Origin: Arsukibacterium tuosuense
Lineage (GTDB): Bacteria > Pseudomonadota > Gammaproteobacteria > Steroidobacterales > GCA-2729495
NCBI GenBank assembly: GCA_945872065.1
Contig: CAMBYH010000007.1
Span: 1 to 64,000, forward strand
Length of the DNA stretch: 64,000 nucleotides
Direction of reading: 5' to 3'
Each line of letters starts with the position of its first letter. Positions within the stretch are counted from its first letter, which is position 1. Shown piece after piece: positions 10,633-28,402 of the stretch. Under the pieces are notes generated by a model. That model was not told where the DNA came from and searched no databases. It saw only the letters and a list, made by a program, of their open reading frames with translations. A program made the translations under genes and the position numbers.

Positions 10633-12876
10633 ATGCGGCCAGCAGCCAGAAAATCGTCGGGCCGGAGTTGGCAGCGGTGGGCCGTACGCCTGATCCTCAG
10701 CGCCCTGCCGCTGGCCGTGTTCATTCCCCACGCACTGGGCACGCGCCCGCTCGAGCCGCTCAGCCGGATCGAGAGCTATCTGTATGACTGGCGGGTGCGG
10801 GCCACGCTGACGCGGGCGGTCGATCCCCGCATCGTCATCGTGGACATCGACGAGACGAGCCTGGGCCGGGTGGGGCAGTGGCCCTGGCCCCGGGGTCAGG
10901 TGGCCACGCTGGTGGATCGGCTCTTCGACGACTACGGTGTCCGGGTCCTGGGTTTCGATGTGGTTTTCCCGGAGCCCGGGGGCGCCGAGGTCGCCGGGGT
11001 TTTCGAGGACTTGCGCCAGTCGCCGCTGGGGGCTGTTCCGGCCATCGTCCGGGAACTCACGGCCGCCGCCGACCGGCTGGACTGGGATAAGGCGTTCGCC
11101 GAGAGTCTCATCGCCCGGGACGTGGCCCTTGGCTTTGTCTTCAAGCAGCGGGTATCCCGGGACCAGCCCGCGGTGATCGGTGTTCTGCCCCCACACTTTG
11201 CCGCCGCAGATCCCCGCGTCCTGGCAGTGGACTGGGCGCGGCCTGCCGGTTACACGGGAAACCTGCCCGGGTTGCAGCAGTCGGCGGTTGCCGGCGGTTT
11301 CTTCGACACCGCCCTGGTGGACGCGGACGGCATCGTGCGGCGCAGCCCGCTGTTCCAGAGCTATCAGGGGAAGCTCTACCCGTCCCTGGCCGTCGCGGTG
11401 GCGCGGCTCGCTCGGCCGGACTCCCCCGTGCGCTTCATCTTTGCTGCCGAGAGCCCGGAGCTGCTGACCCACGTGGAACTCGGCACGAGCCGGGCCCCCG
11501 TCGACCGGAACGGCGCCGTGCTGATTCCGTTCCGCGGCCCCGTCGGCAGTTTCCCCTACGTGTCCGCGGTGGACGTACTGGATGGCACCGCACCGGCCGA
11601 TATTCTCTCGGGGGCCATCGTGCTGATCGGCACCAGTGCACCCGGCTTGCTCGACATCCGGCCGACGCCGGTGGGTCAGGAATACATCGGCGTAGAGACC
11701 CATGCCAATGTGATCGCCGGCCTGCTGGATGGGTCGTTTCCCTACCGGCCCGACAACGCGGCCCTCCTGGAGGTGGCCGGACTCCTGATCCTGGCGGTCC
11801 TGACCGCGCTGGTGGTACCCGTTCTCTCACCACCGGCAGGACTCGCCCTGGCGCTGACCCTGGCTGGACTCGCCATCGGTGCGGGCTTTCTGGCCTGGGT
11901 CCGGGCCGGCAGCGTGATTCCCGTGGGTGGCCTCGCGTTCTACACGGTGGTGGCGGCACTGCTCCAGCTGACCTACGGCTACTTTGCCGAGACCCGGCGC
12001 AAGCGCCGTTTGTCCCGGTTGTTCAGTCAGTACGTTCCGCCGGAAGTCGTCAGTGATCTGGATGCCAGCGAGGCGGAGGTGTCGCTGGAGGGCGAGACGC
12101 GGCAGATGTCAGTGCTGTTCTCCGATGTGCGAGGCTTCACCACCATTGCCGAAGGCCTGACGGCGCGAGAACTCACGCAGCTGATGAACGAGTTCCTCAC
12201 GCCGATCACCGCCGTGATCCAGGAGCACGGGGGCACCATCGACAAGTACATGGGCGATGCGGTGATGGCCTTCTGGGGCGCGCCGCTCAGCGACCCCGGG
12301 CACGCGCGCCACGCGGTGGAGTCCGCCCGGGCCATGGTGCTGGCCATGCGCGCCCTGCATCCCCAGTTCCGCGCCCGGGGCTGGCCGGAGCTGAACATCG
12401 GCGTGGGTATTTCTAGCGGCGCTATGAACGTGGGCAACATGGGCTCCCGCTTTCGCATGGCCTATACGGTGCTTGGCGACACGGTCAATCTCGGTTCGCG
12501 GCTGGAGGGTCTGACCAAGCAGTATGGCGTGGACATCATTGTCAGCGCCGCCACCGCTGCGGCGGTGCCCGACCACTTGTTCCGGGAGCTGGATCTGGTG
12601 CGGGTCAAGGGCAAGCAGGCACCGGTTGCCATTTACGAACCCCTGGGCCCCCTCGCGGAGGTTCCGGACGAGGGGCAGGCTGAGGTGGCTGCCTTCTCGG
12701 CCGTGCTCGCGCTGTACCGGGGGCAGCAGTGGGCCGCGGCCCGGGTGGCCCTCGAACGCCTCCAGGCTGCCCGGCCGCTGGCACTGTATGCCCTCTATCT
12801 GGAGCGTATCGCCCACTTCGTCGCGGCTCCGCCGCCACCGGACTGGGATGGGGTCTATGTCTTCCTGACCAAGTAG
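10633..12876 (+). CDS. CHASE2-domain class III adenylate/guanylate cyclase
   Basis: A 747-residue membrane signalling enzyme. One N-terminal membrane segment (about 20-37) precedes a periplasmic CHASE2 sensor (about 40-350, with IVIVDIDETSLGRVGQWPW and VLGFDVVFPEPG), then three membrane segments (about 372-445) and a cytoplasmic class III cyclase (about 490-680). The metal Asp residues lie in LFSDVRGFT and YMGDAVMAFWGAP, and the transition-state block is LGDTVNLGSRLEGL, so it should be active; cAMP is more likely than cGMP from the K/D pattern but this is not certain. It is first in a long co-directional run. Two cyclic-nucleotide-binding domains are encoded three genes downstream, an obvious candidate target. 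There are 97 bases before the next gene. Confidence 0.9.
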   Translation: MRPAARKSSGRSWQRWAVRLILSALPLAVFIPHALGTRPLEPLSRIESYLYDWRVRATLTRAVDPRIVIVDIDETSLGRVGQWPWPRGQVATLVDRLFDDYGVRVLGFDVVFPEPGGAEVAGVFEDLRQSPLGAVPAIVRELTAAADRLDWDKAFAESLIARDVALGFVFKQRVSRDQPAVIGVLPPHFAAADPRVLAVDWARPAGYTGNLPGLQQSAVAGGFFDTALVDADGIVRRSPLFQSYQGKLYPSLAVAVARLARPDSPVRFIFAAESPELLTHVELGTSRAPVDRNGAVLIPFRGPVGSFPYVSAVDVLDGTAPADILSGAIVLIGTSAPGLLDIRPTPVGQEYIGVETHANVIAGLLDGSFPYRPDNAALLEVAGLLILAVLTALVVPVLSPPAGLALALTLAGLAIGAGFLAWVRAGSVIPVGGLAFYTVVAALLQLTYGYFAETRRKRRLSRLFSQYVPPEVVSDLDASEAEVSLEGETRQMSVLFSDVRGFTTIAEGLTARELTQLMNEFLTPITAVIQEHGGTIDKYMGDAVMAFWGAPLSDPGHARHAVESARAMVLAMRALHPQFRARGWPELNIGVGISSGAMNVGNMGSRFRMAYTVLGDTVNLGSRLEGLTKQYGVDIIVSAATAAAVPDHLFRELDLVRVKGKQAPVAIYEPLGPLAEVPDEGQAEVAAFSAVLALYRGQQWAAARVALERLQAARPLALYALYLERIAHFVAAPPPPDWDGVYVFLTK

Positions 12877-12973: not shown

Positions 12974-14359
12974 ATGAAACGACGGGCAAGGGGCGATTCC
13001 CGACTGGAATTCGCGGGCCGATTTACGCGGGCACTTTCGGGCGTCTTGTGCGCACTCTGCCTGGGGCTTTCCGGGCCACCCGCCCGGTCCGCCGGGACTG
13101 ACTTCGGTGGAGTGCTGAAGCAGGCCCAGGTCCTGCTTGCAGCGGGGCAGGCACGGGAAGCCTGGGAGTTGCTGGCGCCCCTGGAGCTGGACGCGGCAGG
13201 CAGCCCTGACTTCGACTACCTCTACGGTCTTGCCGCTCTCGATAGCGGTCGGCAGGCAGACGCGATTCCCGCCCTGGAGCGGGTGCTGGCCCGGGAACCC
13301 GACTTTGCGGGCGCCCGGATGGAGCTGGCGCGGGCCCGCTTCGAGCTGGGCGACTACCGGTTGGCCAGGGTGCAATTCGATTACCTGCTGACCCAGTCGC
13401 CGCCACCGGCCACCCGGGCAGTCATCGACCGTTACCTGCTGGCGATGGATCAGGGCCTGGTGCCGACGGGTAGCGGCCGCAGCCGCTTCCTGCCCTACGT
13501 CGAGATCGGCTCGGGCTGGGACAGCAACGCGAACGCCTCGACCGACAGCACTACCTTTGGCCCCGTCGATCTCGACTCGAACAACGTGGAGACGGACTCG
13601 ACCTTCGTGGAACTGGCCGGTGGCTTCCAGCACGCTCTGGCCACCGGGCCGGATGGCGTGGTGATCTCCGCCGGCCGGGCGAGCTACCGGTTGAATCCGG
13701 ATGCCCGTTTCGTCGATCAGGCCCTGGTCTCGCTGGGCACGGCGGGCCAGAAGAGCTGGGGCGCTACCCGTGCGACCCTCGGGGCAAGCGGGTACTACAG
13801 CTGGCTCGACGGCAGCCCCCAGGCCTTGAGCGCCGGACTGGACCTGGGCCTCGCCCGCCAGCTGGGCCCGAACTGGGAGCTGGCATCCGTGGCGCGGGTC
13901 GGCAGCCTCCGTTACCAGCAGGACGATCTCGAGATTCTTGACGTCGACCGCTACCTGGGCACTCTGTCGGTGGTCCGCGCAGGCCTCGGCACCGCTGGTG
14001 GCCGGATGGGAGTGTCGGCCCTGTTCGGTGCCGACTCCGCGACGGAGAACGACTCGCCCTACGGCAACAACCGCCTCGGCGGCCGGTTCTTCACCGGCTG
14101 GCCGCTGGGCGCCCGGGGCAACCTGTTCTTCGATGCGGGCTACCTCGTCACCGACTACGACAGTCCGCCGGATTTCTTTGGCGAAGACCGGGAAGACCGG
14201 CAGTGGACGGCGGCTCTGAGCACGGAGTACCGGGACTGGCCGGCCCGGGGCTACAGCCTGGTGCCAACCCTGCGGTTTACCAACACCGACTCCACGGTGT
14301 CCCTGTACGAATACGACCGCCTTGAACTCGGCGTGTACCTGCGCCGGTCGAAGCGCTGA
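12974..14359 (+). CDS. TPR plus outer-membrane beta-barrel protein (Slam/DUF560-like)
   Basis: A 461-residue exported protein: a signal peptide after a long basic start (cleavage near residue 39), TPR-like helical repeats at about 43-165 (AREAWELLAPLE, ALERVLAREPDFAGARMELARA), then a beta-barrel from about 175 with PYVEIGSGWDSNANAST and alternating strands to the C-terminus (YEYDRLELGVYLRR). TPR followed by a DUF560-type barrel is the layout of Slam proteins, which move surface lipoproteins or secreted TbpB-like proteins across the outer membrane. The next gene encodes a protein with a TbpB-like C-terminal region, supporting that idea. It is not a close match that I can name; the Slam assignment is inference from architecture. 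Confidence 0.7.
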   Translation: MKRRARGDSRLEFAGRFTRALSGVLCALCLGLSGPPARSAGTDFGGVLKQAQVLLAAGQAREAWELLAPLELDAAGSPDFDYLYGLAALDSGRQADAIPALERVLAREPDFAGARMELARARFELGDYRLARVQFDYLLTQSPPPATRAVIDRYLLAMDQGLVPTGSGRSRFLPYVEIGSGWDSNANASTDSTTFGPVDLDSNNVETDSTFVELAGGFQHALATGPDGVVISAGRASYRLNPDARFVDQALVSLGTAGQKSWGATRATLGASGYYSWLDGSPQALSAGLDLGLARQLGPNWELASVARVGSLRYQQDDLEILDVDRYLGTLSVVRAGLGTAGGRMGVSALFGADSATENDSPYGNNRLGGRFFTGWPLGARGNLFFDAGYLVTDYDSPPDFFGEDREDRQWTAALSTEYRDWPARGYSLVPTLRFTNTDSTVSLYEYDRLELGVYLRRSKR

Positions 14360-14373: not shown

Positions 14374-16011
14374 ATGAAATTCCTCGCTGTCATCCTGTTG
14401 TCCCTCGCTACATTCAGCACAGCCTTCGCCTCGGCGGGCAAGGTGCTGTTCGTTTCGGGGCCCGTGAGCATCGAACGCACGACGGTAGCTGTTGCCCGGG
14501 CGGGCGATGCGGTCGAGCAGGGCGATGTCATCGCCACGGGAGATAACGCCCGGGCGCAACTGCTGATGAATGACGGCGCCCGCATCGCTCTGCGCAGCGG
14601 TTCGCGCTTTCGCATTGACGAGTTTTCCCTGCCAGCTGCTGTCAGTGCCCCCGTCCAGGCCACCACAGCCAATGCCGCCGGGAGGGCGGTGTCGAGCCTG
14701 CTGAAGGGTGGCTTTCGCACCACCTCGGGGGTCATTGGCAAGAACGACCCTGCCGCTTACGCGGTGCGGACCCCGGTGGGGACCCTGGGCATCCGTGGCA
14801 CGCGCTACGTGGCGGTCTGGTGTGCCGGTGACTGCCGCGATGTTCCGGGGCAGAAGCCCGGGGACGTGATTCGGGACGGGCTCTATCTGGGCGTGGAGGA
14901 GGGCGTGGTGGTATTCCAGTACGGAGCGCGTGAGTTCCGTCTGACCGCCGGCCAGAACCTGTTTGTCCCCGCTGACGGTGGCGAACCGGAGTCCCTGGAC
15001 CTGCCACCGGCGTGGTTTGGCCAGGATGGCGCCGGCAAGTTTGAACTCGCTGGCGGCGCCGTCACCGGCAAGGCCAACAACGTCCGGCTGCCGGGCGTGA
15101 ATGAGCGCCGCGGCCCGGCGAGTCAGAATACTTCTGGCCAGGACGGGGAACCGGCAACCGGTGAAGCGGGCGTTGACCAGCCCATCCTGGGTACCTTCGA
15201 CGGGGAGACCATCGACCTGACACCCGGCAGCGTCCGGCCCAACCAGCCCCAGACCGCGGAGCGTCGTGATCAGGCCTGGTCGGTGGCGAATCTCGCGCTG
15301 GCACCGGCGGGCGTCGCCTCCGGCGAAGTGCTGCTCCCCGGCGCATACACGGTAGACGCGGTTGGGAACCTCGTGGGTTTCGACGGCGTGTATCCCACGG
15401 GTTCGATACCCCTGACAGTCGCCTATGCCATCGGGACTGCCACCGGCCTGGAAAGCGCAGGCAATCCTGTGGCGCTACTCCGCTGGGGCCGCTGGTCTGG
15501 CGGGGACATGAGCGTCGCAGTGAACGGGACTCCCGGGGCCACCAGCCTCGCCCAGCAGAGCCTCCACTGGATACTCAGCGGCAACGCGGCCGTGGCGCCG
15601 GTGCTGCCCATTACCGGCAGCGTGACCTATACGCTGGTGGGCGCTACCAGCCCGACGGACGGTGTCGGTAATGTTGGTACGCTGGGCAGCGCCAGCCTGA
15701 CCGCAGATTTCACCAATAACCTGATAGCCACCACTCTTGATGTCAGCATGGCCGGCAACAACTGGATCGCCTCGGGCCTCGGTCCGATTGGCGCCCAAGC
15801 GGGCCTTCCTGCACACCAGTTCGAGGGTGTCTATAACAGCGTGCAGATCAATCCCATCCAGGGCACTGGCACCGGCACGTTCAGCGGCTTCTTCAGTGGC
15901 CCGGCGTCCGGCCCGGGCGGTGCGCCCGCGGGGGCCGGGCTGTCCTTCAACCTCAACGACGATCTGGGACTGATCCAGGTCAACGGCGTGGCGGCATTCG
16001 TCGCCCCATGA
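14374..16011 (+). CDS. FecR-domain secreted protein with TbpB-like C-terminal region
   Basis: A 545-residue protein with a cleavable signal peptide (about 1-20, no lipobox Cys), a FecR domain (about 35-200: GDAVEQGDVIATG, GARIALRSGSRFRID, TPVGTLGIRGTRYVA), a linker, and a C-terminal part (about 320-545) of Gly-rich strands (SVTYTLVGATSPTDGVGNVG, GTFSGFFSGP, VNGVAAF) resembling the eight-stranded barrel of transferrin-binding-protein-B type handles. FecR domains outside sigma-factor systems are common in such surface proteins. AGGAGG precedes the ATG. Fourteen bases separate it from the TPR barrel gene, and its stop overlaps the next start as ATGA. I propose it is the cargo of the TPR barrel protein. 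Confidence 0.75.
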   Translation: MKFLAVILLSLATFSTAFASAGKVLFVSGPVSIERTTVAVARAGDAVEQGDVIATGDNARAQLLMNDGARIALRSGSRFRIDEFSLPAAVSAPVQATTANAAGRAVSSLLKGGFRTTSGVIGKNDPAAYAVRTPVGTLGIRGTRYVAVWCAGDCRDVPGQKPGDVIRDGLYLGVEEGVVVFQYGAREFRLTAGQNLFVPADGGEPESLDLPPAWFGQDGAGKFELAGGAVTGKANNVRLPGVNERRGPASQNTSGQDGEPATGEAGVDQPILGTFDGETIDLTPGSVRPNQPQTAERRDQAWSVANLALAPAGVASGEVLLPGAYTVDAVGNLVGFDGVYPTGSIPLTVAYAIGTATGLESAGNPVALLRWGRWSGGDMSVAVNGTPGATSLAQQSLHWILSGNAAVAPVLPITGSVTYTLVGATSPTDGVGNVGTLGSASLTADFTNNLIATTLDVSMAGNNWIASGLGPIGAQAGLPAHQFEGVYNSVQINPIQGTGTGTFSGFFSGPASGPGGAPAGAGLSFNLNDDLGLIQVNGVAAFVAP

Positions 16012-18416
16012 CGGGAACCCGCTACAGAATTGCCATTATTGGCGGCGGACCCGGTGGCCTCAGTGCTGCCGCGCACGCCGCCCGGCTGGGCATATCCCAT
16101 GTGCTGCTGGAAGGCAGCCCCGCCCACGCCAACACGATCCAGCGGTACCAGAAGGGCAAGCACGTCATGGCAGAGCCCGCTGCTTTGCCCCTGCGGAGCG
16201 ATCTGGAGTTCGACGCCGGTACCCGGGAGGCCATCCTGGGGGCCTGGGAACAGGGCCTGGCCAGGCAGCAGATCAACGTGCGGTACGGTGCCGAGGTCAC
16301 CGGTATTCAGGGTGCCACTCCGGAGTTCTCCATCACTCTCAGGGACGGCACCGCTGTGTCGGCGGAACAGGTCATTCTGGCGATCGGCGTGCAGGGCAAT
16401 CCCCGCCGGATCGGTGTCCCGGGTGAGGACCTGCCGGTCGTGCAGTACACACTGGACGATCCCGATGAGTACCGGGACGAGACCATTGTGGTCATCGGCG
16501 CCGGCGATGCGGCCATCGAGAATGCACTGGCGCTCGCCCGTCAGAACCGGGTGCTGATCGTCAATCGCAGTGACGAGTTCAACCGGGTGAAGGAGGGCAA
16601 CCTCAAGCTGGTCATGAAAGCGATCGAGGACCAGCGCCTTGAGTGCGCCTACAAGTCGTCCTGCACACGCATCGAGCCTGCAAGCGATGGACGGCGCCAT
16701 GTCCTGACGCTGGCTGGCGACCAGGGGGAGTCCCGCATCGAGTGCGACCGGATCATCGCGCGCATTGGCGCTACTCCTCCCCGCCGGTTCGTGGAGAGAT
16801 GTGGCATCGCCTTTCCCGGCCCGGAGCCGGCCGCCCTGCCGGTGCTGTCCTCCCGCTACGAATCCAGCGTGCCCGGGCTCTATGTGATCGGAGCCCTGGG
16901 GGGCTATCCTCTGATCAAGCAGGCCATGAATCAGGGCTACGAGGCGGTTGAGTACGCCCTCGGCCACACCATCGAGCCGGCCGACGAGCCACTGTTGGCC
17001 GCCAAGTTCCAGGTCCTGCCCTTCATCCTTGGCGTGGACGACACGCTGGCGCTGATGCAGGCCAGGATACCCGTGTACTCGGCGATCAACCCGCTGAACT
17101 TCCGGGAGCTGATTCTGGGCAGTCGCATTGCCGCGCCCGCAGCGGGCGAGGTGATCTTCCTCAAGAACGACTACACGAACAGCTTCTTCACCATCCTGGC
17201 CGGCACCGTGGAGATCGAGGTGGGCGAGGAGCGCAAGAGCCGGCTGACGCTCGGGCCGGGCCAGTTCTTCGGGGAGATGAGTCTGCTGTCGGGTCGGCGG
17301 CGCTCGGCGACGACCCGGGCCGGTGCGGGTTGCGTACTGATCGAAGCGCCGCGCCGGGAGATCAACCGGCTGATCAGTTCGGTGGAGGGTGTGCGCCGGG
17401 TTATCGACGAGCACTTTATTGCCCGGGCCATCCAGACCAGCTTTGCTCCGGAGGCCAGCTATGACGACCTCAAGGCCATCGCTGCCAGTGCGAGGCTGCG
17501 CCGCTACAAGCCTGATGAGGTGATCTTCACCGAGGGTGACGAAGCCGACAGCCTGCACCTGATACGGAGCGGCTCCGTGGCGGTAGCCCGGGACATTGGT
17601 GGGCGAGACGTCGTTACTTCCTACGTGGCGGCCGGGAACTATGTGGGGGAAATGGGCCTCGTGAGCCGCACGGGCAGGACTGCCACGGTACGGGCGACTG
17701 TCACTACCGAAACTGTCAGCCTGGACGCCGCGACCTTCCATCAGTTGCTGGAGAAGAATCCGACCCTGCGCGATCAGGTGCAGGCCACGGTGCGCCGCCG
17801 CCTCGCGGAGAACACCCGCATGGCGGGTCAGCCGGAGAGTGGCGACCTTATTTCCTTCCTCATGCAGCAGGGCCTCGGCGAGGCGACGGACGTCCTGCTG
17901 ATCGACGAGACGCTCTGTATCGGCTGTGACAACTGTGAACGGGCCTGCGCCGAAACCCACGCCGGGACGTCCCGGCTCGACCGGGAGGCCGGCCCAACTT
18001 TCGCCCACATCCATGTGCCGACCTCCTGCCGGCACTGCGAGGATCCCCACTGCATGACGGACTGCCCGCCGGACGCGATCGGTCGGGCGCCTAACGGCGA
18101 GGTCTACATCCGTGACAACTGCATTGGCTGCGGCAACTGCGAGCGCAACTGTCCCTACGGCGTGATCCAGATGGCAGCTGCCGCACCGGAAAAGCCGGGG
18201 CTCCTCAACTGGCTGCTGTTTGGTGCCGGCCCCGGACCGGGCCAGGCAAGGCATGGGTCTGACCAGGGCGACAAGGGCCCCAAGAAAGCCGTGAAGTGCG
18301 ATATGTGCCGGGATGTCGGCGGCGGGCCGGCCTGCGTGCGGGCCTGTCCGACCGGAGCCGCAATTCGCATCTCTCCCGAGAAGTTCGTCCAGCTGATCCA
18401 CGACACGACGCGCTGA
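16008..18416 (+). CDS. Flavin oxidoreductase / two cNMP-binding domains / 4x[4Fe-4S] ferredoxin fusion
   Basis: An 802-residue three-part protein. Residues 1-325 form a thioredoxin-reductase-like FAD/NAD(P)H domain with GGGPGG at 12-17 and a second nucleotide motif VIGAGDAAIENA near 162, but no redox CxxC, like YpdA-type reductases. Two cyclic-nucleotide-binding domains follow (about 365-450 and 490-585), each with a phosphate-binding cassette: GEMSLLSGRRRSATTRA and GEMGLVSRTGRTATVRA. From about 637 to 785 is a ferredoxin module of the NrfC/DmsB/HybA kind with sixteen Cys in four groups (CIGCDNCERAC, CRHCEDPHCMTDC, CIGCGNCERNC, CDMC...CVRAC), enough for four clusters. No signal peptide: it is cytoplasmic. 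I infer NAD(P)H oxidation gated by cAMP/cGMP with electrons leaving to the membrane partner encoded three bases downstream. Confidence 0.88.
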   Translation: MTGTRYRIAIIGGGPGGLSAAAHAARLGISHVLLEGSPAHANTIQRYQKGKHVMAEPAALPLRSDLEFDAGTREAILGAWEQGLARQQINVRYGAEVTGIQGATPEFSITLRDGTAVSAEQVILAIGVQGNPRRIGVPGEDLPVVQYTLDDPDEYRDETIVVIGAGDAAIENALALARQNRVLIVNRSDEFNRVKEGNLKLVMKAIEDQRLECAYKSSCTRIEPASDGRRHVLTLAGDQGESRIECDRIIARIGATPPRRFVERCGIAFPGPEPAALPVLSSRYESSVPGLYVIGALGGYPLIKQAMNQGYEAVEYALGHTIEPADEPLLAAKFQVLPFILGVDDTLALMQARIPVYSAINPLNFRELILGSRIAAPAAGEVIFLKNDYTNSFFTILAGTVEIEVGEERKSRLTLGPGQFFGEMSLLSGRRRSATTRAGAGCVLIEAPRREINRLISSVEGVRRVIDEHFIARAIQTSFAPEASYDDLKAIAASARLRRYKPDEVIFTEGDEADSLHLIRSGSVAVARDIGGRDVVTSYVAAGNYVGEMGLVSRTGRTATVRATVTTETVSLDAATFHQLLEKNPTLRDQVQATVRRRLAENTRMAGQPESGDLISFLMQQGLGEATDVLLIDETLCIGCDNCERACAETHAGTSRLDREAGPTFAHIHVPTSCRHCEDPHCMTDCPPDAIGRAPNGEVYIRDNCIGCGNCERNCPYGVIQMAAAAPEKPGLLNWLLFGAGPGPGQARHGSDQGDKGPKKAVKCDMCRDVGGGPACVRACPTGAAIRISPEKFVQLIHDTTR

Positions 18417-18419
18417 GCC

Positions 18420-19310
18420 ATGCACCAGTCAGTTCTGGCCTACGGCAGATCCCGCTACCTGTGGGCGGCCCTGGCGGTTTGCGCCACCGCGATTGGCGCT
18501 TACGTCCTGGATTCACCCGGGGTTCCGCGCAACGGGGGCACCTGGCTGGGCTACACCCTGGGCACCCTCGGCGCGGTCCTGATTCTGTGGCTCATGTCCT
18601 TTGGAATCCGCAAGCGTGCCTATGCGTCCCAGGCGGGGACTGTGCAGGGCTGGCTCTCTGCCCATATCTACCTGGGCGTCAGCCTGCTGGTGGTGGTGAC
18701 GCTGCATACCGGTTTCCAGGTGGGCTGGAATATCCACACGCTGGCCTACGTTCTCCTGTGGATCGTGGTCGCCAGCGGAGTTTTCGGGGTCCTGGTCTAT
18801 CTGCGCTATCCCCGCTTGCTGAGCAGCAACCGCGGCTCCCAGACCAAGGATCAGCTCCTCAGTGATCTGGCCGATCTGGACGCACGCTGCCTCCGCGTGA
18901 CGGCCGGGATGCCTCCGGAATTCGGGGAAGCACTGCTGGCCAACCGGGACCGGACGCTGCTTGGGGGCACCGCCTTTGCCCTGCTGGCCGGCCAGGATCG
19001 TTCACAGATTCTGCTACCGGTAGTGGGCGGCGCGACGGTTCTCTACCAGGCCTTGCCCAACCCGGACCAGTCGGCGCTTCTCGACTGGCTGGGCCAGCGC
19101 CTCGCCGCCAGTAGCGATGGGGGGGTGTCGCGGCAGTTGCAGGAATTGCTCGGTCTGGTGGGTGCCCGGCGAACTCTGCTCGGCCGGCTCCGGCGGGACG
19201 CGCAGCTCAAGGCCTGGCTAGAAGTCTGGCTCTATGTGCACGTGCCGTTGTCCTTCGGGCTGCTGGCTGCGCTGATTGCCCATGTCCTCTCAGTCTTCAT
19301 CTACTGGTAG
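18420..19310 (+). CDS. Cytochrome-b-like integral membrane protein
   Basis: A 296-residue protein with five predicted membrane segments (about 13-31, 42-62, 82-98, 106-130, 272-295) and a soluble loop at 135-265. Histidines lie in or at the ends of helices: H82, H96, H106, H274 and H288, positions suited to ligating one or two b hemes. It has no named family that I recognise. It begins three bases after the iron-sulfur fusion and ends immediately before the FHA-decaheme gene, so it likely connects cytoplasmic electrons (or quinol) to the periplasmic hemes. The heme assignment is inference from His placement; a non-heme anchor protein is the alternative. Confidence 0.65.
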   Translation: MHQSVLAYGRSRYLWAALAVCATAIGAYVLDSPGVPRNGGTWLGYTLGTLGAVLILWLMSFGIRKRAYASQAGTVQGWLSAHIYLGVSLLVVVTLHTGFQVGWNIHTLAYVLLWIVVASGVFGVLVYLRYPRLLSSNRGSQTKDQLLSDLADLDARCLRVTAGMPPEFGEALLANRDRTLLGGTAFALLAGQDRSQILLPVVGGATVLYQALPNPDQSALLDWLGQRLAASSDGGVSRQLQELLGLVGARRTLLGRLRRDAQLKAWLEVWLYVHVPLSFGLLAALIAHVLSVFIYW

Positions 19311-20945
19311 TTGCCTGTGCGTGTCCTGATCCGCTTTCTCCGCGCCGGCCCTGCAGGGGCCGTCGAGCAGAAGGACAAGCTCTACGACGGCGAGTCGGTA
19401 ACGCTGGGGCGCGCCACTGACCAGGTTGTGCAGCTGAAGGACCGGCGCGTCGCGCTCGCCCATGCCCAGATCATCTTGCGCAACGGCCACCCGGTCCTGA
19501 TCAGCCGCGTGCCGGGCGGTGTGCTGGTCAACGGCACCCTCCAGCGCGAGGCGCGGCTGCGGGCTGGCGATGTGGTCACCCTGGGCGCCAATGTACTGCG
19601 GATCCTGCCGCCTCCGGCCGGTTGCGAACTGGCCTTCAGCTTCGAGCTGGACCCGGACGCCCGGCCCCAGAGCGTGGCGCTGGACTTGCCCAGGCTCCGA
19701 CTGGCGGAGCTGGGTTTCGGGAAGCGGCGCTGGTCCTGGGCGTTGTTCCTTGGAGTCTTCCTGCTGGCCCTGGCCATTCCGTCCGCCGGGTTGCGCAGTC
19801 CGCAAATCCAGGAAAGCTTGCGGGCGAGTCTGTTGCCGGATGACCACTGGTGGTCGCCCGGGCCACTCAGTCGGGTGCATGAGGTCCTGGGAACCCGCTG
19901 TGACGCCTGTCATCAGAAGCTGTTCCAGCGGGTCCGGAATGACGCGTGCCTCACCTGTCACGCCAGCAATCTGCATCAGCACTGGCCGCACCCTGGGATT
20001 GGTGCGGCCGCGCCAGAAATGCGCTGCGCCAGCTGTCACGCGGAGCACCACGAGCCCGCCACCCTGGTGCGCCAGGATCCGGCTGTGTGCATCAACTGTC
20101 ACCGGGACCTGAAGGCCCTTGCGCCTGCCACCCTTATTGCCGCGCGGGTGACGGATTTTGCTGCTGACCACCCTGGCTTCGCTGTGCCAGTTACGGACGA
20201 ATCGGGCCTCAAGTTTCCTCACGACGTCCACCTGGCGAAGGACGGTATCCGCTCACCAGTGGGCGATACGGTACTCGGGTGCAAGGACTGCCACGCCCTC
20301 GAGCCCGGCGGCGCGCGCTTTCGTCCGGTACAGATGCAGCGCGACTGCGGTGGGTGTCACCTGCTGGATTTCGACCCAGCATACCCGGAGCGCACTGTGC
20401 CCCACGGCGACGCCAAAGTGATCTCCGGGTTTCTGGTGGACTACTACAGCCGCCGCTATCTGGAGGCCTACGCGGACCCCCTGGCTGTTCCCGGCACTGC
20501 CCGGCGCACCGGGCCGAAGCTGACTGCACCAGAGCGGGAGCGTCTCCTGCGCACGGCCCGGGAACAGTCGGCGATGGTGACGCGGGATCTGTTTGAGCGC
20601 CGCAGCTGTGCCCAGTGCCACGACGTGACGCGGGATATCTCCAAGGTGCCTGACGAATGGCAGGTCAAGGCCGTCAAACTCAGGAGCGCGTGGCTCAAGG
20701 GTGCCACCTTCAACCATGCTGCCCATTCCACGGCGCTGACCAGCTGTGAAAGCTGCCACGGGGCGTTGGATTCAAAAGCAGCATCCGATGTGCTGCTCCC
20801 GGACATCGCCACCTGCCGGGAGTGTCACGCGGGTGGTGACGCCCACGCCACTCCTCCGGACCGTCTCACCAGCACCTGCAATCTGTGTCACGGCTTTCAT
20901 GGCGACGAGAACCCCTTGTGGCAGGCGCGGGGCGTGGCCCCATGA
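19311..20945 (+). CDS. FHA-domain inner-membrane decaheme cytochrome c
   Basis: A 544-residue protein that joins a cytoplasmic forkhead-associated domain (about 20-90: SVTLGRATDQVVQL, HAQIILRNGHP, VNGTLQ, LRAGDVVTLG) to a membrane helix (about 141-162) and a periplasmic multiheme part. Ten CXXCH motifs are present (CDACH, CLTCH, CASCH, CINCH, CKDCH, CGGCH, CAQCH, CESCH, CRECH, CNLCH). FHA domains bind phosphothreonine peptides, so this architecture would let Ser/Thr phosphorylation touch a respiratory cytochrome. The start is a TTG at 19311 abutting the previous stop, or a GTG two codons later; no strong ribosome site decides. Its stop overlaps the lipoprotein start as ATGA. Confidence 0.88.
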   Translation: MPVRVLIRFLRAGPAGAVEQKDKLYDGESVTLGRATDQVVQLKDRRVALAHAQIILRNGHPVLISRVPGGVLVNGTLQREARLRAGDVVTLGANVLRILPPPAGCELAFSFELDPDARPQSVALDLPRLRLAELGFGKRRWSWALFLGVFLLALAIPSAGLRSPQIQESLRASLLPDDHWWSPGPLSRVHEVLGTRCDACHQKLFQRVRNDACLTCHASNLHQHWPHPGIGAAAPEMRCASCHAEHHEPATLVRQDPAVCINCHRDLKALAPATLIAARVTDFAADHPGFAVPVTDESGLKFPHDVHLAKDGIRSPVGDTVLGCKDCHALEPGGARFRPVQMQRDCGGCHLLDFDPAYPERTVPHGDAKVISGFLVDYYSRRYLEAYADPLAVPGTARRTGPKLTAPERERLLRTAREQSAMVTRDLFERRSCAQCHDVTRDISKVPDEWQVKAVKLRSAWLKGATFNHAAHSTALTSCESCHGALDSKAASDVLLPDIATCRECHAGGDAHATPPDRLTSTCNLCHGFHGDENPLWQARGVAP

Positions 20946-22918
20946 ATAAGCCGGCCACTCTCGTTGTCATCGCCCTGGTGCTGACCGGTTGCGGGGGCGG
21001 TGGGGACGGTTCCCCCGCTGGTGCCGAGGCGCCAGGTCCGGCGCCCTGCGCCGGCAGTTGCGCAACAGCGAGCAGCCTGCTCTCCGGCGCCGACGTGGAG
21101 CGGGTGATCAGTCAGGCCGTTGCTGAGGCCGCCGCCCGGGGCCAGCCCTCGACCATTGCGGTGGTGGACCGGGTGGGGAACGTGCTCGCCGTCTTCCAGA
21201 TGACGGGTGCGCCCACGAGCGTGACGATCACGTCGGGCACCGGCGTAACCGGTGGACTTGAGGGCGTGAATATCGTGCCCGCCACCATGGCCGCCATCGC
21301 CAAGGCCATTACGGGTGCGTACCTCTCCAGCGAAGGCAACGCCTTCAGCACCCGCACTGCCAGTCAGATCGTGCAGCAGCATTTCAATCCGGGTGAGCTG
21401 CTGGCGCCCAGTGGGCCTCTGTCCGGCGTGCAGTTCAGCCAGCTGCCCTGCTCTGATCTGGCAGGCCGCTTTGGCGGCGGCCCTGCGGACGCGGGGCCTA
21501 AACGTTCACCCCTGGGTCTGGCCGCTGACCCCGGTGGCTTTCCCCTGTACAAGGCAGGCACACCGGTCGGCGGCGTTGGCGTCATCGCAGACGCCATCTA
21601 TGGCCTTGATCTGAGCATCAGCGATCAGGACTCGGCTGTGGACGAACTGGTCGCCCTGGCGGCCACCTTCGGGTTTGCAGCTCCCAGCGACCGGCGTGGC
21701 GACCGGATCAGCGCCGACGGCAAGACCTTTCGCTTCAGCGATGCGGGATTCAACGACCTGCTCACCGCGCCCGCCAGCGCTCCCGCCTTCAGCGCCATTA
21801 ATGGTGTGGATGGAATACTTCTCGCCGTCCCCGGCTATGCCGCCGCGACGGTCCAGGCTGGCGTGGCCTTCGGTCAGCCGAACTCAGGCGTGCAGGCCGA
21901 CCCGGCAGGCTTTCCGGGCCTGGATGCATTCGTGCTGGTGGATGATGCGGGTCAGCCCCGCTATCCGCCGGTGGCTGGCAGCGAGGCGCTGGGGGCACTC
22001 ACCGCCGCCGAGGTCCGGGAGCTCCTGAGCAGTGCCCTCAGCGTAGCGAACAGGGCCAGAGCGCAGATTCGCCGGCCCCTTGAAACCGCCGCACGGGTCA
22101 CGATCAGCGTGGTGGATTCAGCGGGTAATGTTCTTGGCATCGTGCGCAGCCGGGACGCGCCGGTCTTTGGCATCGACGTTGCCCTGCAGAAGGCCCGCAG
22201 CGCTGCCTTCCTGTCATCTGCTGTAGCGGACGCCGCGGTGACGGGGGTACCCGACGCGGTGTATCTGGACGGCGGACTGGTGGTGCTGGCGAGCAGTTCG
22301 CCGTCGGCCTACCTCCCAGCCGCGCAGGCGTTTCTCGGTCTGCCTGCCGCCTTTACGGACGGCGCCCTGGCCTTCTCCGCGCGTTCAATCGGCAATCTGT
22401 CCCGGCCCTTTTACCCGGACGGGGTCGACGGGCAGGGACCCGGCCCCTTCAGCAAGCCCCTCAGTGCCTGGAGTCCGTTTTCCACGGGCCTGCAACTGGA
22501 TCTGGCCTACAACGCCGTGATTCAGCACGTGGCGTTCGTGCTCGGCAGCGCACCGGACGTGCCACCCAACTGCACTGGCATCAGCGGCTTCAACACGGGA
22601 TTCGCCGTGGTATCTCCCATTGCTGGGCTGGCCAATGGTCTGCAGATCTTTCCTGGCGGTGTGCCGGTATATCGGGGTGCAACGCTGGTGGGGGCTGTGG
22701 GGGTCTCCGGGGACGGCGTCGACCAGGACGACATGATCGCGTTTCTGGGCGTGGCCGAGGCCACGGTTGCACTCGGTGGCTTGGGCGCGCCCGGCAATGC
22801 ACCCCGGGCCATCCGCTCGGACACGCTCCTGCCGTCTGGTGCGCGGCTGCGCTATGTGAACTGTCCCCAGGCCCCGTTTCTGGACTCCACAGAGCAGAGC
22901 GCCTGTGGTGGGCTCTAG
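20942..22918 (+). CDS. Lipoprotein with two GlcG/HbpS-type (DUF336) domains
   Basis: A 658-residue protein starting at the ATG that overlaps the previous stop; this start gives a lipoprotein signal with lipobox LTGC (Cys17), followed by a Gly-rich tether. Two related alpha/beta units are visible, each opening with a helix and the strand pattern of the GlcG/HbpS family (QPSTIAVVDRVGNVLAVFQM near 80-100; AARVTISVVDSAGNVLGIVR near 382-402). HbpS-type proteins bind heme or act as extracellular redox/heme sensors; GlcG itself has no firm role. Between two decaheme genes, heme binding or a structural role at the outer leaflet is a fair inference. After Cys17 comes Gly, compatible with outer-membrane sorting. 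Confidence 0.75.
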   Translation: MNKPATLVVIALVLTGCGGGGDGSPAGAEAPGPAPCAGSCATASSLLSGADVERVISQAVAEAAARGQPSTIAVVDRVGNVLAVFQMTGAPTSVTITSGTGVTGGLEGVNIVPATMAAIAKAITGAYLSSEGNAFSTRTASQIVQQHFNPGELLAPSGPLSGVQFSQLPCSDLAGRFGGGPADAGPKRSPLGLAADPGGFPLYKAGTPVGGVGVIADAIYGLDLSISDQDSAVDELVALAATFGFAAPSDRRGDRISADGKTFRFSDAGFNDLLTAPASAPAFSAINGVDGILLAVPGYAAATVQAGVAFGQPNSGVQADPAGFPGLDAFVLVDDAGQPRYPPVAGSEALGALTAAEVRELLSSALSVANRARAQIRRPLETAARVTISVVDSAGNVLGIVRSRDAPVFGIDVALQKARSAAFLSSAVADAAVTGVPDAVYLDGGLVVLASSSPSAYLPAAQAFLGLPAAFTDGALAFSARSIGNLSRPFYPDGVDGQGPGPFSKPLSAWSPFSTGLQLDLAYNAVIQHVAFVLGSAPDVPPNCTGISGFNTGFAVVSPIAGLANGLQIFPGGVPVYRGATLVGAVGVSGDGVDQDDMIAFLGVAEATVALGGLGAPGNAPRAIRSDTLLPSGARLRYVNCPQAPFLDSTEQSACGGL

Positions 22919-24680
22919 GTTTCTTCTTTTCAGTTTCCTGTTGTCCGGGACGTGCCTGGCGGGCGCGGGTGTGGCAGGGGAGCACTGTCCGGCCGAGACG
23001 CCTGTCGATCCGGACCGGCTCCGCCCTGGCGAACAAGTGCAACCCTTTGTCCCGACCCCGTGCAATCCTGCCGCTCTCCCGCTGCTCCCGGAGGCTGTGC
23101 CGCCGGCCTACACCGCCTACCCCGATCGCTGGCGCCTGGTCGATGTGCTGGGCTATGCCAATAACCTGTGGAATCCCTACCGGGGAAACAACTGGCTGAA
23201 GGGCGACCGCCCGGCCTTTGGCAAGGACTGGTTTGTGAGTCTCACGGGCATATCCGATACGGTGGTGGAACCGCGGCGCTTTCCCGTACCAGTCGGCGGC
23301 CCGGTCACGGAGAATCCCGGCAGTCTTGATGTCCTCGGTGAAGGTCAGCAGCTGGTACTGGCGGAAACAATTCTTCTGGAGGGAGTCCTTTACAAAGGGG
23401 ACACCGTCTTCATGCCGCCCGAGTGGGAGTTCCGGATCATTCCGGCCTTCAACGTCAATTACGCCCGGTCCGAAGAGCGGGGCTTCCTGCAGGCGCCCGC
23501 CGATGCGAGTACGACGCGGCGGGATGCCACGGTTGCCCTGCAGGGCCTTTTCGTTGACCGGCATCTCCGGGATGTTTCAGCGAACTACGATTTCGATTCC
23601 CTGCGCGTGGGTATCCAGCCGTTCACGGCGGACTTTCGCGGCTTTCTGTTCCTCGACAGTCCGGTCGGCGTCCGGCTCTTCGGGAACCGGCAGAACAACC
23701 GCTATCAGTACAACCTGGCCTGGTTCCGGCGCCTCGACAAGGACACCAATAGCGGACTCAATGCCATTCTTGAGGACGGGCTACCGAGTATCCGCAGTGA
23801 CGACGTCTTTGTGGCTAACCTGTATGCCCAGGATCTGCCGGTTCCAGGCTTCACGTCCCAGGTGATTGCGGCCTATAACCGTAACCGGGAGTCCGACGAT
23901 GTGCAGTACGATGACAACGGTTTTATTCAGCGGCCAGCTTCGATCGGGATCGAGTTGGGCAGGGACTACGATGTCGTCTATCTGGGCTACAACGGTGATG
24001 GTCATTTCGATGAGTTCAACCTGAGCATCTCGGCCTATGGGGCGGTTGGGGATGAGACGCGCAGCACCTTCACGACCGCCGGTGGCGACATCCGGGCCTT
24101 CTTTCTGGCTGCGGAAGTGTCCAGGGACTTCGACTGGATCCGCCCACGCCTGTCAGCACTCTACGCCAGCGGCGATGACGATCCCTTCGACGGCACCGCC
24201 GAGGGGTTTGACGCGATCTTTGAGAACCCTCTGTTTGCCGGCGCCGACACCAGCTTCTGGATTCGCCAGCCCGTGCCGCTGATTGGCGGTGGGCGCGTGG
24301 GCTTGTCGGGACGCAACGGGATACTCAACTCCCTGCGGTCCTCCAAGGAATTCGGGCAGTCCAACTTCAGTAATCCGGGCACCGTACTCCTGGGACTCGG
24401 CGCCGACCTGGACCTGTCGCCGCAATTGCGCCTGAGTGGCAACGCCAATGAGCTCTGGTTTGCCGATACCACCACCGTGGAAGTGGCGCGGAATCAGGGT
24501 GGAATTGACGAGCACCTCGGGCTCGACTTGTCTCTGGCCCTGACCTGGCGGCCGCTGGCCATTCAGAACATCGTCTTCCGGTTATCCGCGGCGGCGCTGA
24601 TTCCGGGCAAGGGTTACGAGCAGCTGTATGGCGATGAAACAGCCTACTCGATTCTGGGCAACCTGGTGCTGACGTACTGA
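22905..24680 (+). CDS. Outer-membrane beta-barrel protein of the cytochrome locus
   Basis: A 591-residue exported protein (signal peptide about 1-24) with a short Pro-rich, Cys-containing N-terminal part and a long run of alternating amphipathic strands ending in LGNLVLTY with a terminal Tyr, as in outer-membrane porins. Strand-rich repeats such as FNVNYARSEERG, YQYNLAWFRRL and FNLSISAYGAVG support a barrel of 16 or more strands. It starts at a GTG (22905) 14 bases inside the previous gene. Lying between two decaheme genes, it is the natural candidate for the porin sheath of a porin-cytochrome conduit, although I see no clear match to MtrB or PioB. Alginate-export-type barrels are another possible relative. 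Confidence 0.75.
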   Translation: MVGSRFLLFSFLLSGTCLAGAGVAGEHCPAETPVDPDRLRPGEQVQPFVPTPCNPAALPLLPEAVPPAYTAYPDRWRLVDVLGYANNLWNPYRGNNWLKGDRPAFGKDWFVSLTGISDTVVEPRRFPVPVGGPVTENPGSLDVLGEGQQLVLAETILLEGVLYKGDTVFMPPEWEFRIIPAFNVNYARSEERGFLQAPADASTTRRDATVALQGLFVDRHLRDVSANYDFDSLRVGIQPFTADFRGFLFLDSPVGVRLFGNRQNNRYQYNLAWFRRLDKDTNSGLNAILEDGLPSIRSDDVFVANLYAQDLPVPGFTSQVIAAYNRNRESDDVQYDDNGFIQRPASIGIELGRDYDVVYLGYNGDGHFDEFNLSISAYGAVGDETRSTFTTAGGDIRAFFLAAEVSRDFDWIRPRLSALYASGDDDPFDGTAEGFDAIFENPLFAGADTSFWIRQPVPLIGGGRVGLSGRNGILNSLRSSKEFGQSNFSNPGTVLLGLGADLDLSPQLRLSGNANELWFADTTTVEVARNQGGIDEHLGLDLSLALTWRPLAIQNIVFRLSAAALIPGKGYEQLYGDETAYSILGNLVLTY

Positions 24681-24682
24681 GT

Positions 24683-27600
24683 ATGAGGATGGAATCGCGG
24701 CTGAAGCCGCTCCTACTGGTAGTGCTCGCGACCGTGGCGCAGGCGTCGCCGGAAGAGCCGGCTGTGGAACGAGGCTGGGTAAGCGCGCCGGCAGCGCCGA
24801 AATCCCAGCCCGCTGCAGCGGCGGACCGCAAGAGTGCAGGATGCCTCGACTGTCACACCCGGACGGACCAGCCGACGATGCACGCGAGCCCTGCGGTAGT
24901 GCTGGGCTGTGCCGACTGTCATGGCGGTGACGCTGCCGTCCGGCGGTCATCAGTAATCCTCGATAAGACAGAGCCTTATGAGTTATTGCTAAGGCAGGCT
25001 CACATTCTGCCCCGCTACCCGGAGGCCTGGGCAAAGCAGGGCAGCGCCAACCCGATCCGCAGCTACACGCTGCTGAACCGGGAAGCCCCCGAGTTCATCC
25101 GCTTCATCAACCCCGGGGACTACCGGATCGCCCGGGAGTCCTGCGGCAGCTGCCACCTGCCAGTGATCGAGGCAGCAGAGCGCAGCCTGATGGCGACGAA
25201 CGCGATGTTCTGGGGTGGCGCGGCCTATAACAACGGGATACTGCCTCTCAAGAACTATGTCCTCGGCGAGGGCTACACCCGGGAGGGGCAACCAGCCATC
25301 CTGAACAGCGCACCTCTGGACACGCTGGGTCTTACGCCCGAGCAGGCGCAGGACCGGGGCGTGCTGACCAGGCTTTACCCGCTGCCCCGGTGGGAAAACC
25401 TGCAGCCGGCCGATGTCTTCCGGGTCTTCGAGGACGGCGGGCGCAATGTGCTCAACACGTTCCCTGAAACCGGCATTCCCAATGCACTCGGCCAGCTGCA
25501 GCGTCTCGAGGAGCCGGGCCGCCCGGATGTGAAACAGTCCAGCCGCGGTCCTGGGACTGGCGCGCGCATCGCTGTGCCGGTCCTCAACATCCACAAGACC
25601 CGGCTGAACGACCCGCTGATGTGGTATCTCGGGACCAACGACCAGCCGGGCGACTACCGGTCGTCGGGCTGCTCCAGCTGTCATGTGGTGTACGCGAACG
25701 ACCGCAATCCGTTTTCGGCCAGTGTCTACGCAGCTGCAGGCCATCGGGGGCTTACCCAGACCACAGATCCAACCATTTCCCAGGACCAGAGTGGCCACCC
25801 GATCCGGCACGCCTTCTCCCGGTCCATTCCCACCAGTCAGTGCATGACCTGCCACATGCACCAGCCCAACATGTTCATGAACTCCTTCCTCGGCTACACG
25901 ATGTGGGACTACGAGTCCGACGCGCCGGCCATGTGGCCTGCCGAGCAGCAGTACCCGGACGCGGAGCAGATGCGCAAGGTGCTGGACAGGAATCCGGAAG
26001 GGGCTGCGCCAAGGGGCAAATGGGCCGACGAGGACTTCCTCGCCCGCGTCTCGGAGCTGAATCCGCAACTGAAGGACACCCAGTTCGCCGACTATCACGG
26101 GCACGGCTGGAACTTCCGCGGGGTCTTTAAACGTGACCGGAAGGGCAATCTGCTGGACAAGGACGGTGCCCTTGTCACCCCTGACGATCCGCAGAAGTGG
26201 GGCAAGGCGGTACACATGCAGTCCGTGCACGTGGATGCCGGTATGCAGTGTGTGGACTGCCACTATGCACAGGATGCCCACGGTACGGGGCACCTCATGG
26301 CCGAGGTGGCTCAGGCCGTAGAGATCGACTGCAAGGATTGCCACGGTACGACCCGCGCCTACCCGACGCTGCGCACATCGGGCCCTGCGTCGCCACCTGC
26401 TGGCACCGATCTCAGCACCCTGCGGAATCCGGACGGCCGCAAGCGCTTCGAGTGGCGGGGTGAAGTCCTCATCCAGCGCTCGGCTGTTGACCCGGAGCTC
26501 GAGTGGCAGGTCTCCCTCGTCAAAGCGTCGGTCACGCCCGGTAACGCGGGGTACAACCAGAAGGCAGCGCGCGCGAAGCTGATGTCGCGCGATACGCAGA
26601 CCCAGCGTTACGGTACCGATGTGGCCTGGGACCAGCTCGCCCACAACGACGACGAACTGGAGTGCTACACCTGTCACACCTCCTGGACTACCAGTTGCGG
26701 CGGCTGCCACCTGCCCATCGAGGCCAACTGGAAGACCGAGCGTCACCGGCCCGAAGGGGGCGCGTCCCGCAACTATGCAACCTACAACCCGCAGGTCGCC
26801 CGGGAGGAGATCTTCATGCTGGGCCGTCGCGGTCCCGCCGAGGGCAACAAGATTTCTCCCGTGCGCTCGTCCTCCGCTCTGGTGCTGTCCTCCACCAACG
26901 CCAACCGTGAGCGCATCTACGTGCAGCAGCCTCCGGTCTCCGCCTCGGGCTACAGCTCCCAGGCCATGAACCCCCACTATCCCCACACGGAGCGGAAGAC
27001 GGAGACCAAGGTGTGCTCGGACTGCCACCTGAGTGCCGCCGGAGACAACAACGCCATCCTCGCCCAGACGCTGGGGCAGGGGACCCAGTTCATCAATTTT
27101 CTCGGGCTTAACGCCTGGGTCGGTGAGGAGCGGGCGGTCAGCGCGGTGCAGGTCACCGAGTGGGAGGAGCCCCAGGCAGTAATCGGCAGCTACCTCCAGC
27201 GCTACGCCTACCCGGACTTCTACGCGGCACATCAGAAGCGGGGCATGGTGTTGCCGGTCATGGAGTCCCGCCGGTCCGGTCCCGCGGAGTGCCTGCAGTT
27301 GCGTGGCGAGTATCTCTACACGGCAGAGCGCGGCAAAGGGTTTCGCGTCTACGACGTGGCCGGGATCGCCAACAAGGGGCTCAGCCAGAAGATCCTGACG
27401 GGACCTTTCGGGCCGCTGGGGCAGGACACCCACGTGGCCACGGCCGACGCCACCTGCGTAGCACTCGCCACCACCCAGCCCGTGCATCCGCCCCGCAATG
27501 AGGGCGAGCTGATGCGGAAGGATAATCTGGAGCAGCCTTTTGCCTCGATCTACAACTACGCGGTGATCACCGATAGTGTCGAGGGTCTGATCCTCGTCGA

Positions 27601-28402
27601 TATCAATACGCTGGCAGACGGTGAGTTCCGCAATAACTTTCTGCGCCGCGCACTGACCTGGAATGCGGACGGAGTACTACGGGGCGCCCGTCACGTGACG
27701 GTGGCGGGAAGCACACTGTACGTCACCACGCCCGCGGGTGTCGCCGTGGTGGATGTGACCACGGCACTGCAGCCAAAGCTGCTGACGGTCGTGCCATTGC
27801 CTGGCGCGCGAGCCAGCATGCAGCAGTTCCGCTATCTGTTTGTGACCGATGGTGAGGGGCTGAAGGTCATCGACATTACGCGGCCTGCCCAGGCGCAACT
27901 CGTGGCCGGCGCGGTCGTGCCCCTGAAAGACGCCCACAAGATCTTCGTCTCCCGCACCTATGCTTTTGTGGCAGCCGGGGCGGAGGGACTAGCGATCATT
28001 GATGTGGAGAGACCGGAAGCACCGAGGCTCTACCAGCTCTTTAACGACGGTGGCAACCTGCGGGATGTGCGGGATGTGGTCGTCGCCTCGACCAACGCCT
28101 CGCTGTTTGCCTACGTTGCCGACGGTGCAGACGGTCTCAAGGTGCTGCAGCTGACCGCGCCCGACACCCAGCCAAACTTCTACGGCTTCAGCCCGGAGCC
28201 AAAGCCCCGGGTCATTGCCCGGCGCACTACCAGCTCCCCCGCGCTGGCGCTCTCCCGGCCCCTCGAGCGGGACCGGGCGGTCGACGAAAGCGGGGACCAG
28301 GTGGCGGTGTTTGGCCGGCGGGGTTCCCGGCCGTTCCAGGCCGGCGAGATGCAGCGGCTGTATCTCAACGACCAGCTGCTGCCCTGGGTCGTCCGCGACT
28401 GA
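24683..28402 (+). CDS. Exported decaheme cytochrome c with LVIVD beta-propeller
   Basis: A 1239-residue protein with a signal peptide (1 to about 22), a multiheme region (about 50-790) with ten CXXCH motifs (CLDCH, CADCH, CGSCH, CSSCH, CMTCH, CVDCH, CKDCH, CYTCH, CGGCH, CSDCH), and a C-terminal region (about 860-1160) of LVIVD-type repeats (GFRVYDVAG, GLILVDINT, GVAVVDVTT, GLKVIDITR, GLAIIDVER, GLKVLQLT) that should fold as a beta-propeller. Wide spacing between hemes and the propeller suggest an enzyme or a surface-exposed terminal reductase rather than a simple wire. It starts two bases after the barrel gene. Residues 5-11 of the signal peptide are encoded by a REP palindrome. Confidence 0.88.
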   Translation: MRMESRLKPLLLVVLATVAQASPEEPAVERGWVSAPAAPKSQPAAAADRKSAGCLDCHTRTDQPTMHASPAVVLGCADCHGGDAAVRRSSVILDKTEPYELLLRQAHILPRYPEAWAKQGSANPIRSYTLLNREAPEFIRFINPGDYRIARESCGSCHLPVIEAAERSLMATNAMFWGGAAYNNGILPLKNYVLGEGYTREGQPAILNSAPLDTLGLTPEQAQDRGVLTRLYPLPRWENLQPADVFRVFEDGGRNVLNTFPETGIPNALGQLQRLEEPGRPDVKQSSRGPGTGARIAVPVLNIHKTRLNDPLMWYLGTNDQPGDYRSSGCSSCHVVYANDRNPFSASVYAAAGHRGLTQTTDPTISQDQSGHPIRHAFSRSIPTSQCMTCHMHQPNMFMNSFLGYTMWDYESDAPAMWPAEQQYPDAEQMRKVLDRNPEGAAPRGKWADEDFLARVSELNPQLKDTQFADYHGHGWNFRGVFKRDRKGNLLDKDGALVTPDDPQKWGKAVHMQSVHVDAGMQCVDCHYAQDAHGTGHLMAEVAQAVEIDCKDCHGTTRAYPTLRTSGPASPPAGTDLSTLRNPDGRKRFEWRGEVLIQRSAVDPELEWQVSLVKASVTPGNAGYNQKAARAKLMSRDTQTQRYGTDVAWDQLAHNDDELECYTCHTSWTTSCGGCHLPIEANWKTERHRPEGGASRNYATYNPQVAREEIFMLGRRGPAEGNKISPVRSSSALVLSSTNANRERIYVQQPPVSASGYSSQAMNPHYPHTERKTETKVCSDCHLSAAGDNNAILAQTLGQGTQFINFLGLNAWVGEERAVSAVQVTEWEEPQAVIGSYLQRYAYPDFYAAHQKRGMVLPVMESRRSGPAECLQLRGEYLYTAERGKGFRVYDVAGIANKGLSQKILTGPFGPLGQDTHVATADATCVALATTQPVHPPRNEGELMRKDNLEQPFASIYNYAVITDSVEGLILVDINTLADGEFRNNFLRRALTWNADGVLRGARHVTVAGSTLYVTTPAGVAVVDVTTALQPKLLTVVPLPGARASMQQFRYLFVTDGEGLKVIDITRPAQAQLVAGAVVPLKDAHKIFVSRTYAFVAAGAEGLAIIDVERPEAPRLYQLFNDGGNLRDVRDVVVASTNASLFAYVADGADGLKVLQLTAPDTQPNFYGFSPEPKPRVIARRTTSSPALALSRPLERDRAVDESGDQVAVFGRRGSRPFQAGEMQRLYLNDQLLPWVVRD
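24695..24716 (-). repeat. REP-type palindrome, copy 3, inside a signal peptide
   Basis: GCGGCTGAAGCCGC (24697-24710) flanked by TC and TCCTAC matches the same REP class in inverse orientation. It lies within the coding sequence of the decaheme-LVIVD protein and encodes SRLKPLLL, the basic-to-hydrophobic transition of the signal peptide. Confidence 0.7.

Follow-up and report, generated by a model that had tools for sequence, protein, structure and literature searches.

Cyclic nucleotides are known in bacteria mainly for CRP-type control of transcription and for acting on a few enzymes and channels. The cyclic nucleotide-binding (CNB) domain is also found fused to non-transcriptional proteins, as in the mycobacterial Pat acetyltransferase and family 2B encapsulins (NCBIfam matches), but these are not electron-transfer enzymes. 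Porin-cytochrome conduits of the Mtr (MtrCAB) and Pcc (OmbB-OmaB-OmcB) type come from gene clusters that encode a porin together with a pair of multiheme cytochromes, which lie on opposite (inner and outer) sides of the envelope, and a survey of Pcc systems uses none of the terms cyclic nucleotide, FHA or NADPH (PMC4245776). Here we describe a reductase encoded in a 64,000-nucleotide stretch of Arsukibacterium tuosuense contig CAMBYH010000007.1 (hereafter the window), in which a flavin domain, two CNB domains and a four-cluster ferredoxin part are joined, and whose gene heads a conserved, tight six-gene unit with a predicted porin and two multiheme cytochromes (Table 1). The sensors thus form part of a redox enzyme whose gene is tied to those of a set of envelope cytochromes, and we lean towards reading this enzyme as the cytoplasmic entry of a cyclic nucleotide-controlled, NAD(P)H-fed trans-envelope electron conduit.

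The open reading frame (ORF) of the reductase is intact, encoding 802 amino acids with zero internal stops. Pfam models cover it as Pyr_redox_2/3 (residues 6–310), two cNMP_binding stretches (1.7e-37) and several Fer4 models, giving the order FAD/NAD(P) domain (approximately 6–320), CNB-A (370–470), CNB-B (485–600) and cluster part (628–795). This architecture goes beyond chance, since a tblastn-confirmed scan returned 579 relatives, the best 80 of which match near full-length (55–72%); residue conservation in the reductase refers to an alignment of 93 full-length homologues, distant ones (46–50%) included. An antisense frame over the same region (15831–18425, minus strand, 864 amino acids) is probably a shadow ORF that reflects the high GC content of the coding DNA, and it was not counted as a gene.

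Among solved folds, the N-terminal domain is closest to YpdA/Bdr (7a7b, target TM-score 0.86), then to thioredoxin reductase (TrxR) and TrxR-type ferredoxin-NADP+ reductases (FNRs), Foldseek matching the FNRs 3ab1, 6gar and 3lzw. With the TrxR-type FNRs (3ab1 and 3lzw) and YpdA/Bdr it shares the fold, the GxGxxG motifs for FAD and NAD(P) (with G12/G14/G17 and G164/G166 conserved) and the lack of a CxxC motif. No CxxC occurs in the NAD(P) half of the 802-residue protein, residues 130–160 containing neither this motif nor a conserved Cys pair, and the position of the YpdA active-site Cys (GGGPCG) is occupied by Gly. The curated YpdA model scores below its cut-off (118.9 bits vs 339.9), and activity as a bacillithiol disulfide reductase (YpdA) or thioredoxin reductase is ruled out, the required Cys being missing. 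What is left are the features of a TrxR-type FNR, namely two Rossmann motifs, a TrxR-like fold and no redox Cys; because both the YpdA Cys and the CxxC are absent, the domain would appear built for handing on electrons rather than for reducing disulfides. Two arginines at positions suiting NADPH (R187, conserved in 93/93; R193, in 90/93) would fit this nucleotide as the donor. Unlike FNRs and YpdA/Bdr, the reductase has a four-cluster ferredoxin part of its own, along with two CNB domains, in the same polypeptide.

The 16 cluster Cys, in four motifs (637/640/643/647, 674/677/682/686, 705/708/711/715 and 764/767/776/780), are all invariant in 93/93 homologues and stand in an order identical to that in the DmsB, NrfC, HydN and FdhB subunits, which exchange electrons with a membrane cytochrome subunit. 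In contrast to these subunits, the cluster part is fused behind CNB domains and falls far under every named subfamily cut-off (DmsB, 54.9 vs 214.1; NrfC, 45.6 vs 377.6). The phosphate-binding cassettes of CNB-A (FFGEMSLLSGRRRSAT) and CNB-B (YVGEMGLVSRTGRTAT) are nearly as well kept: E423, R432 and E548 are present in 93/93 homologues and R557 in 92/93 (371/372 cells overall), while only 11% of positions in the CNB region are at least 98.5% identical, the four cassette residues among them. CNB-like domains that no longer bind a cyclic nucleotide typically show loss of the cassette Glu or Arg. Degenerate CNB domains are therefore ruled out by the cassette conservation, and both domains are predicted to bind a cyclic nucleotide. 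In both cassettes the Arg is followed mostly by Ser or Thr, a residue that fits either cyclic AMP (cAMP) or cyclic GMP and does not decide between them. A preliminary description of this DNA had recognized an 802-residue protein with a YpdA-like FAD domain devoid of redox Cys, two complete phosphate-binding cassettes and 16 cluster Cys in DmsB/NrfC-like order, all of which is borne out here.

That description had treated the protein as stand-alone, a view that neighbourhood and co-occurrence rule out. Intergenic gaps within the six-gene unit range from -4 to +3 bp, the exception being the -14 bp from the HbpS-like gene to the porin gene. Completeness was counted on 36 loci flanked by at least 9 kb in either direction: all five partners were found in 29, four in 5 (where the unit is rearranged and runs past the end of the fetched stretch) and the inner two only in 2. 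In a sample of 299 genomes from across the phylum, the reductase was detected in 10 and the decaheme LVIVD protein in 7, all 7 being inside the 10 (Fisher p = 3e-12), and the membrane protein in 10/10 reductase genomes plus only 2 weak others (p = 5e-17). Among 60 relatives the counts were 6 and 7, with 6 shared (p = 1.4e-7); the single genome with the decaheme LVIVD protein but no reductase is an assembly of 82% completeness. None of these p-values is corrected for shared ancestry, and they are descriptive only. The unit seems to be gained or lost as a whole, since only 2 of the 8 congeneric genomes have it. Both triads, the inner one (reductase, membrane protein and FHA-decaheme cytochrome) and the outer one (HbpS-like, porin and decaheme LVIVD proteins), are present in genomes G183 and G295, although separated there by more than 600 kb.

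Table 1. Genes of the reductase locus, with positions in the window.
Feature	Position	Strand	Basis or remark
CHASE2 + class III nucleotide cyclase	10633..12876	+	Pfam CHASE2 4.9e-56, Guanylate_cyc 2.8e-19
TPR protein with SlipAM-like barrel, accessory	12974..14359	+	accompanies cyclase in a subset of loci
FecR-domain protein	14374..16011	+	stop overlaps reductase start by 4 bp
Reductase: FAD/NAD(P)H domain, CNB-A, CNB-B, 4 x cluster motif	16008..18416	+	ORF, Pfam, relatives, alignment
Membrane protein, five helices, predicted diheme cytochrome b	18420..19310	+	His 82/96, 274/288, His106; no Pfam family
FHA domain, one transmembrane helix, decaheme c-type cytochrome (ten CXXCH)	19311..20945	+	Pfam, motif count
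HbpS/GlcG-like repeat protein, predicted lipoprotein (LTGC)	20942..22918	+	Pfam HbpS-like 1.4e-22
Predicted outer-membrane porin	22905..24680	+	hydrophobic signal-like N-terminus, weak DESULF_POR1 match, conserved position
Secreted decaheme cytochrome with LVIVD repeats	24683..28402	+	LVIVD 9.1e-13, CXXCH count

The membrane protein (296 amino acids) carries five His that are invariant in 73/73 sequences, with H82/H96 and H274/H288 on two helices and each pair 14 residues apart. Cytochrome b of the bc1 complex has His pairs on two helices with this same 14-residue spacing, and the protein is predicted to be a diheme cytochrome b. AlphaFold2 gives a confident helical model (predicted local distance difference test score, pLDDT, 91), for which the VIA matches, otherwise to unrelated helical bundles, included cytochrome b6 (2e74_A, Z 7.9, root-mean-square deviation 4.5 over 139 residues); Foldseek found no match below E 0.5, and a profile search against PDB sequences found none. 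At locus L111 (8850–12206) the reductase and membrane protein are fused in a single 1118-amino-acid ORF, which speaks for docking of the cluster end on the membrane protein and for a cytoplasmic N-terminus of the latter. Locus L121 (4844–10909), where the reductase is absent, encodes a protein distantly related to the membrane protein near an ORF with 34 CXXCH motifs.

Of the remaining partners, the FHA cytochrome scores 28.3 against a cut-off of 192.2 with the DmsE-family decaheme model, and its FHA domain may provide a further input that is phospho-dependent. The lipobox pattern was found in 50/61 HbpS-like proteins. The decaheme LVIVD protein has exactly 10 CXXCH motifs in 39/39 sequences and 13 further highly conserved His outside them; all its heme motifs are plain CXXCH, and a CXXCK site made by any additional conserved Cys pair is absent. 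PDB sequence searches with this protein and with the porin gave no match. The gene inventory and co-occurrence fit the Mtr/Pcc pattern, the porin resting on a weak profile match, but none of the Mtr/Pcc-type models scored above cut-off on the unit proteins, and there was no MtrB or OmcA/MtrC match. The unit is best read as analogous to, not homologous with, Mtr/Pcc, from which it also differs in having an inner decaheme that carries an FHA domain and a membrane anchor, and a donor that would be a cyclic nucleotide-binding NAD(P)H reductase.

Upstream of the reductase gene lie, in order, the genes for the cyclase, the TPR/SlipAM-like protein and the FecR protein, and the reductase looks translationally coupled to the last of these because of the overlap of start and stop codons. 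The cyclase signature (LFSD at 495, K538YMGD and LGD616TVNLGSRL) retains the metal Asp, Lys538 and Asp616, which we take to be the residues expected of adenylate cyclases. The genome encodes two PF00211 cyclases, one of them in the reductase operon, and the probability of finding one by chance within 5.5 kb of the reductase is approximately 0.8%; a cyclase adjoins the reductase likewise in genomes G304 and G340. With an adenylate-type cyclase in the operon, cAMP is most likely the ligand here. A cyclase was found inside the fetched stretch at 15/91 loci, which implies that most members rely on a cyclic nucleotide made elsewhere.

In the mechanism that we propose, NAD(P)H would reduce the FAD of the reductase, as its fold and motifs suggest, and the fusion implies that electrons then pass to the enzyme's own four-cluster part. 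From the clusters they would reach the predicted diheme cytochrome b, a step supported by co-occurrence in 10/10 genomes, invariant adjacency and the L111 fusion. Conserved association and topology point to the membrane-anchored periplasmic FHA-decaheme cytochrome as the next carrier; to judge from its anatomy, the porin/decaheme LVIVD/HbpS-like lipoprotein module would then take the electrons to an acceptor on or beyond the outer membrane. The CNB domains, which separate the FAD domain from the cluster part, would on binding their ligand change the FAD-to-cluster geometry or docking, and the signal would thereby switch the outflow of electrons, a gating predicted from the cassettes and the cyclase. 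Direct action of a cyclic nucleotide on electron transfer, as put forward in the preliminary description, remains an inference; the invariant cassette residues support it, as does the adenylate-type cyclase in the operon here and in a few relatives. The bolder claim that cAMP sets electron export directly and reversibly, without transcription, in lineages including cultured heterotrophs is one that we advance tentatively, as somewhat doubtful.

Several observations weigh against the proposed conduit and its control. Within the AlphaFold2 model of the reductase, the FAD and CNB parts are usable and the cluster part is mostly at pLDDT <50. Only 7/80 related loci, several of them from related lineages, have a long CHASE2-cyclase match close to the reductase, and the match of the porin to DESULF_POR1 is weak. 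Genomes G034 and G001 contain the reductase and the FHA-decaheme cytochrome, the outer decaheme being undetected. The sister locus L122 (2794–8498) encodes a 584-amino-acid protein with two CNB domains and four cluster motifs, from which the FAD domain is absent; a tetraheme C554-like protein precedes it, and after it come a protein related to the membrane protein and a decaheme cytochrome. The CNB and cluster parts together with cytochrome b and decaheme may form the older core, with the FAD domain as a replaceable donor module, which raises the likelihood that the CNB domains work at the cluster or membrane end.

The sister locus bears on an explanation in which the conduit is real and the CNB domains govern assembly, membrane docking or oligomerization rather than catalysis, or respond to another ligand. 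The second cassette is degenerate in L122, a cyclase neighbour is absent at most loci, and one CNB stretch (approximately 205 residues) can be aligned to the tandem found in protein kinase A regulatory subunits, which work through docking. We consider this explanation unlikely, though deserving of serious attention, as the Glu and Arg of both cassettes are kept in nearly all 93 homologues and argue for a bound cyclic nucleotide. A different role for the outer module has a somewhat smaller likelihood: the decaheme LVIVD protein could be a periplasmic or outer-membrane reductase of a specific soluble substrate and not a wire, in keeping with its fixed heme count, its conserved non-motif His and the tetraheme C554-like protein added at betaproteobacterial loci. 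The predicted porin and lipoprotein conserved next to its gene speak against such an enzyme, as does its complement of plain CXXCH motifs.

Electrons might also flow inwards, the outer module oxidizing an extracellular donor and the reductase making NAD(P)H. Porin-cytochrome complexes can conduct either way, and a Gallionellaceae census lists a 10-heme 'Forkhead-associated protein' in 27/87 iron-oxidizer genomes, under 'Other' and with no function assigned (PMC10734462); this is probably the FHA-decaheme partner of the reductase. Reduction of NAD(P)+ from c-type hemes would, however, be uphill without energy input, and the six-gene unit appears to hold no ion-pumping component. The named carriers Dokdonella, Solimonas and Sphingobium are moreover heterotrophs, and inward flow strikes us as improbable.

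The reductase is widespread, and no precedent for a cyclic nucleotide-sensing conduit entry enzyme was found in the literature searched, nor any description of the reductase or the unit, most subscription papers and all preprints lying outside the scope of that search. If the proposal is true, the unit would define a new route of electron export among bacteria that have not been examined for such a system, and a previously undescribed form of respiratory control in which a second messenger gates the entry enzyme of a conduit. Direct second-messenger control of respiration would then be testable using one purified protein.

Reductase and envelope cytochromes span Gamma-, Beta- and Alphaproteobacteria, and also occur on large Sphingobium plasmids. 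Twelve Sphingobium plasmid records carry the reductase, annotated in Sphingobium as 'cyclic nucleotide-binding domain-containing protein' and nothing more; on plasmid pMSHV of Sphingobium herbicidovorans (locus L120), a large plasmid typed as conjugative, the unit is present with a divergent outer triad. A tetraheme C554-like gene adjoins the reductase at L054 (8589–9983) and approximately 20 related loci, sometimes as tandem pairs, these loci being mainly betaproteobacterial and some gammaproteobacterial. The window itself contains a tetraheme C554-like cytochrome gene (38000–39502) adjoining UbiD-like (35632–37281) and NmrA-like genes, and a second UbiD-like gene lies at 7053–8528 on the minus strand.

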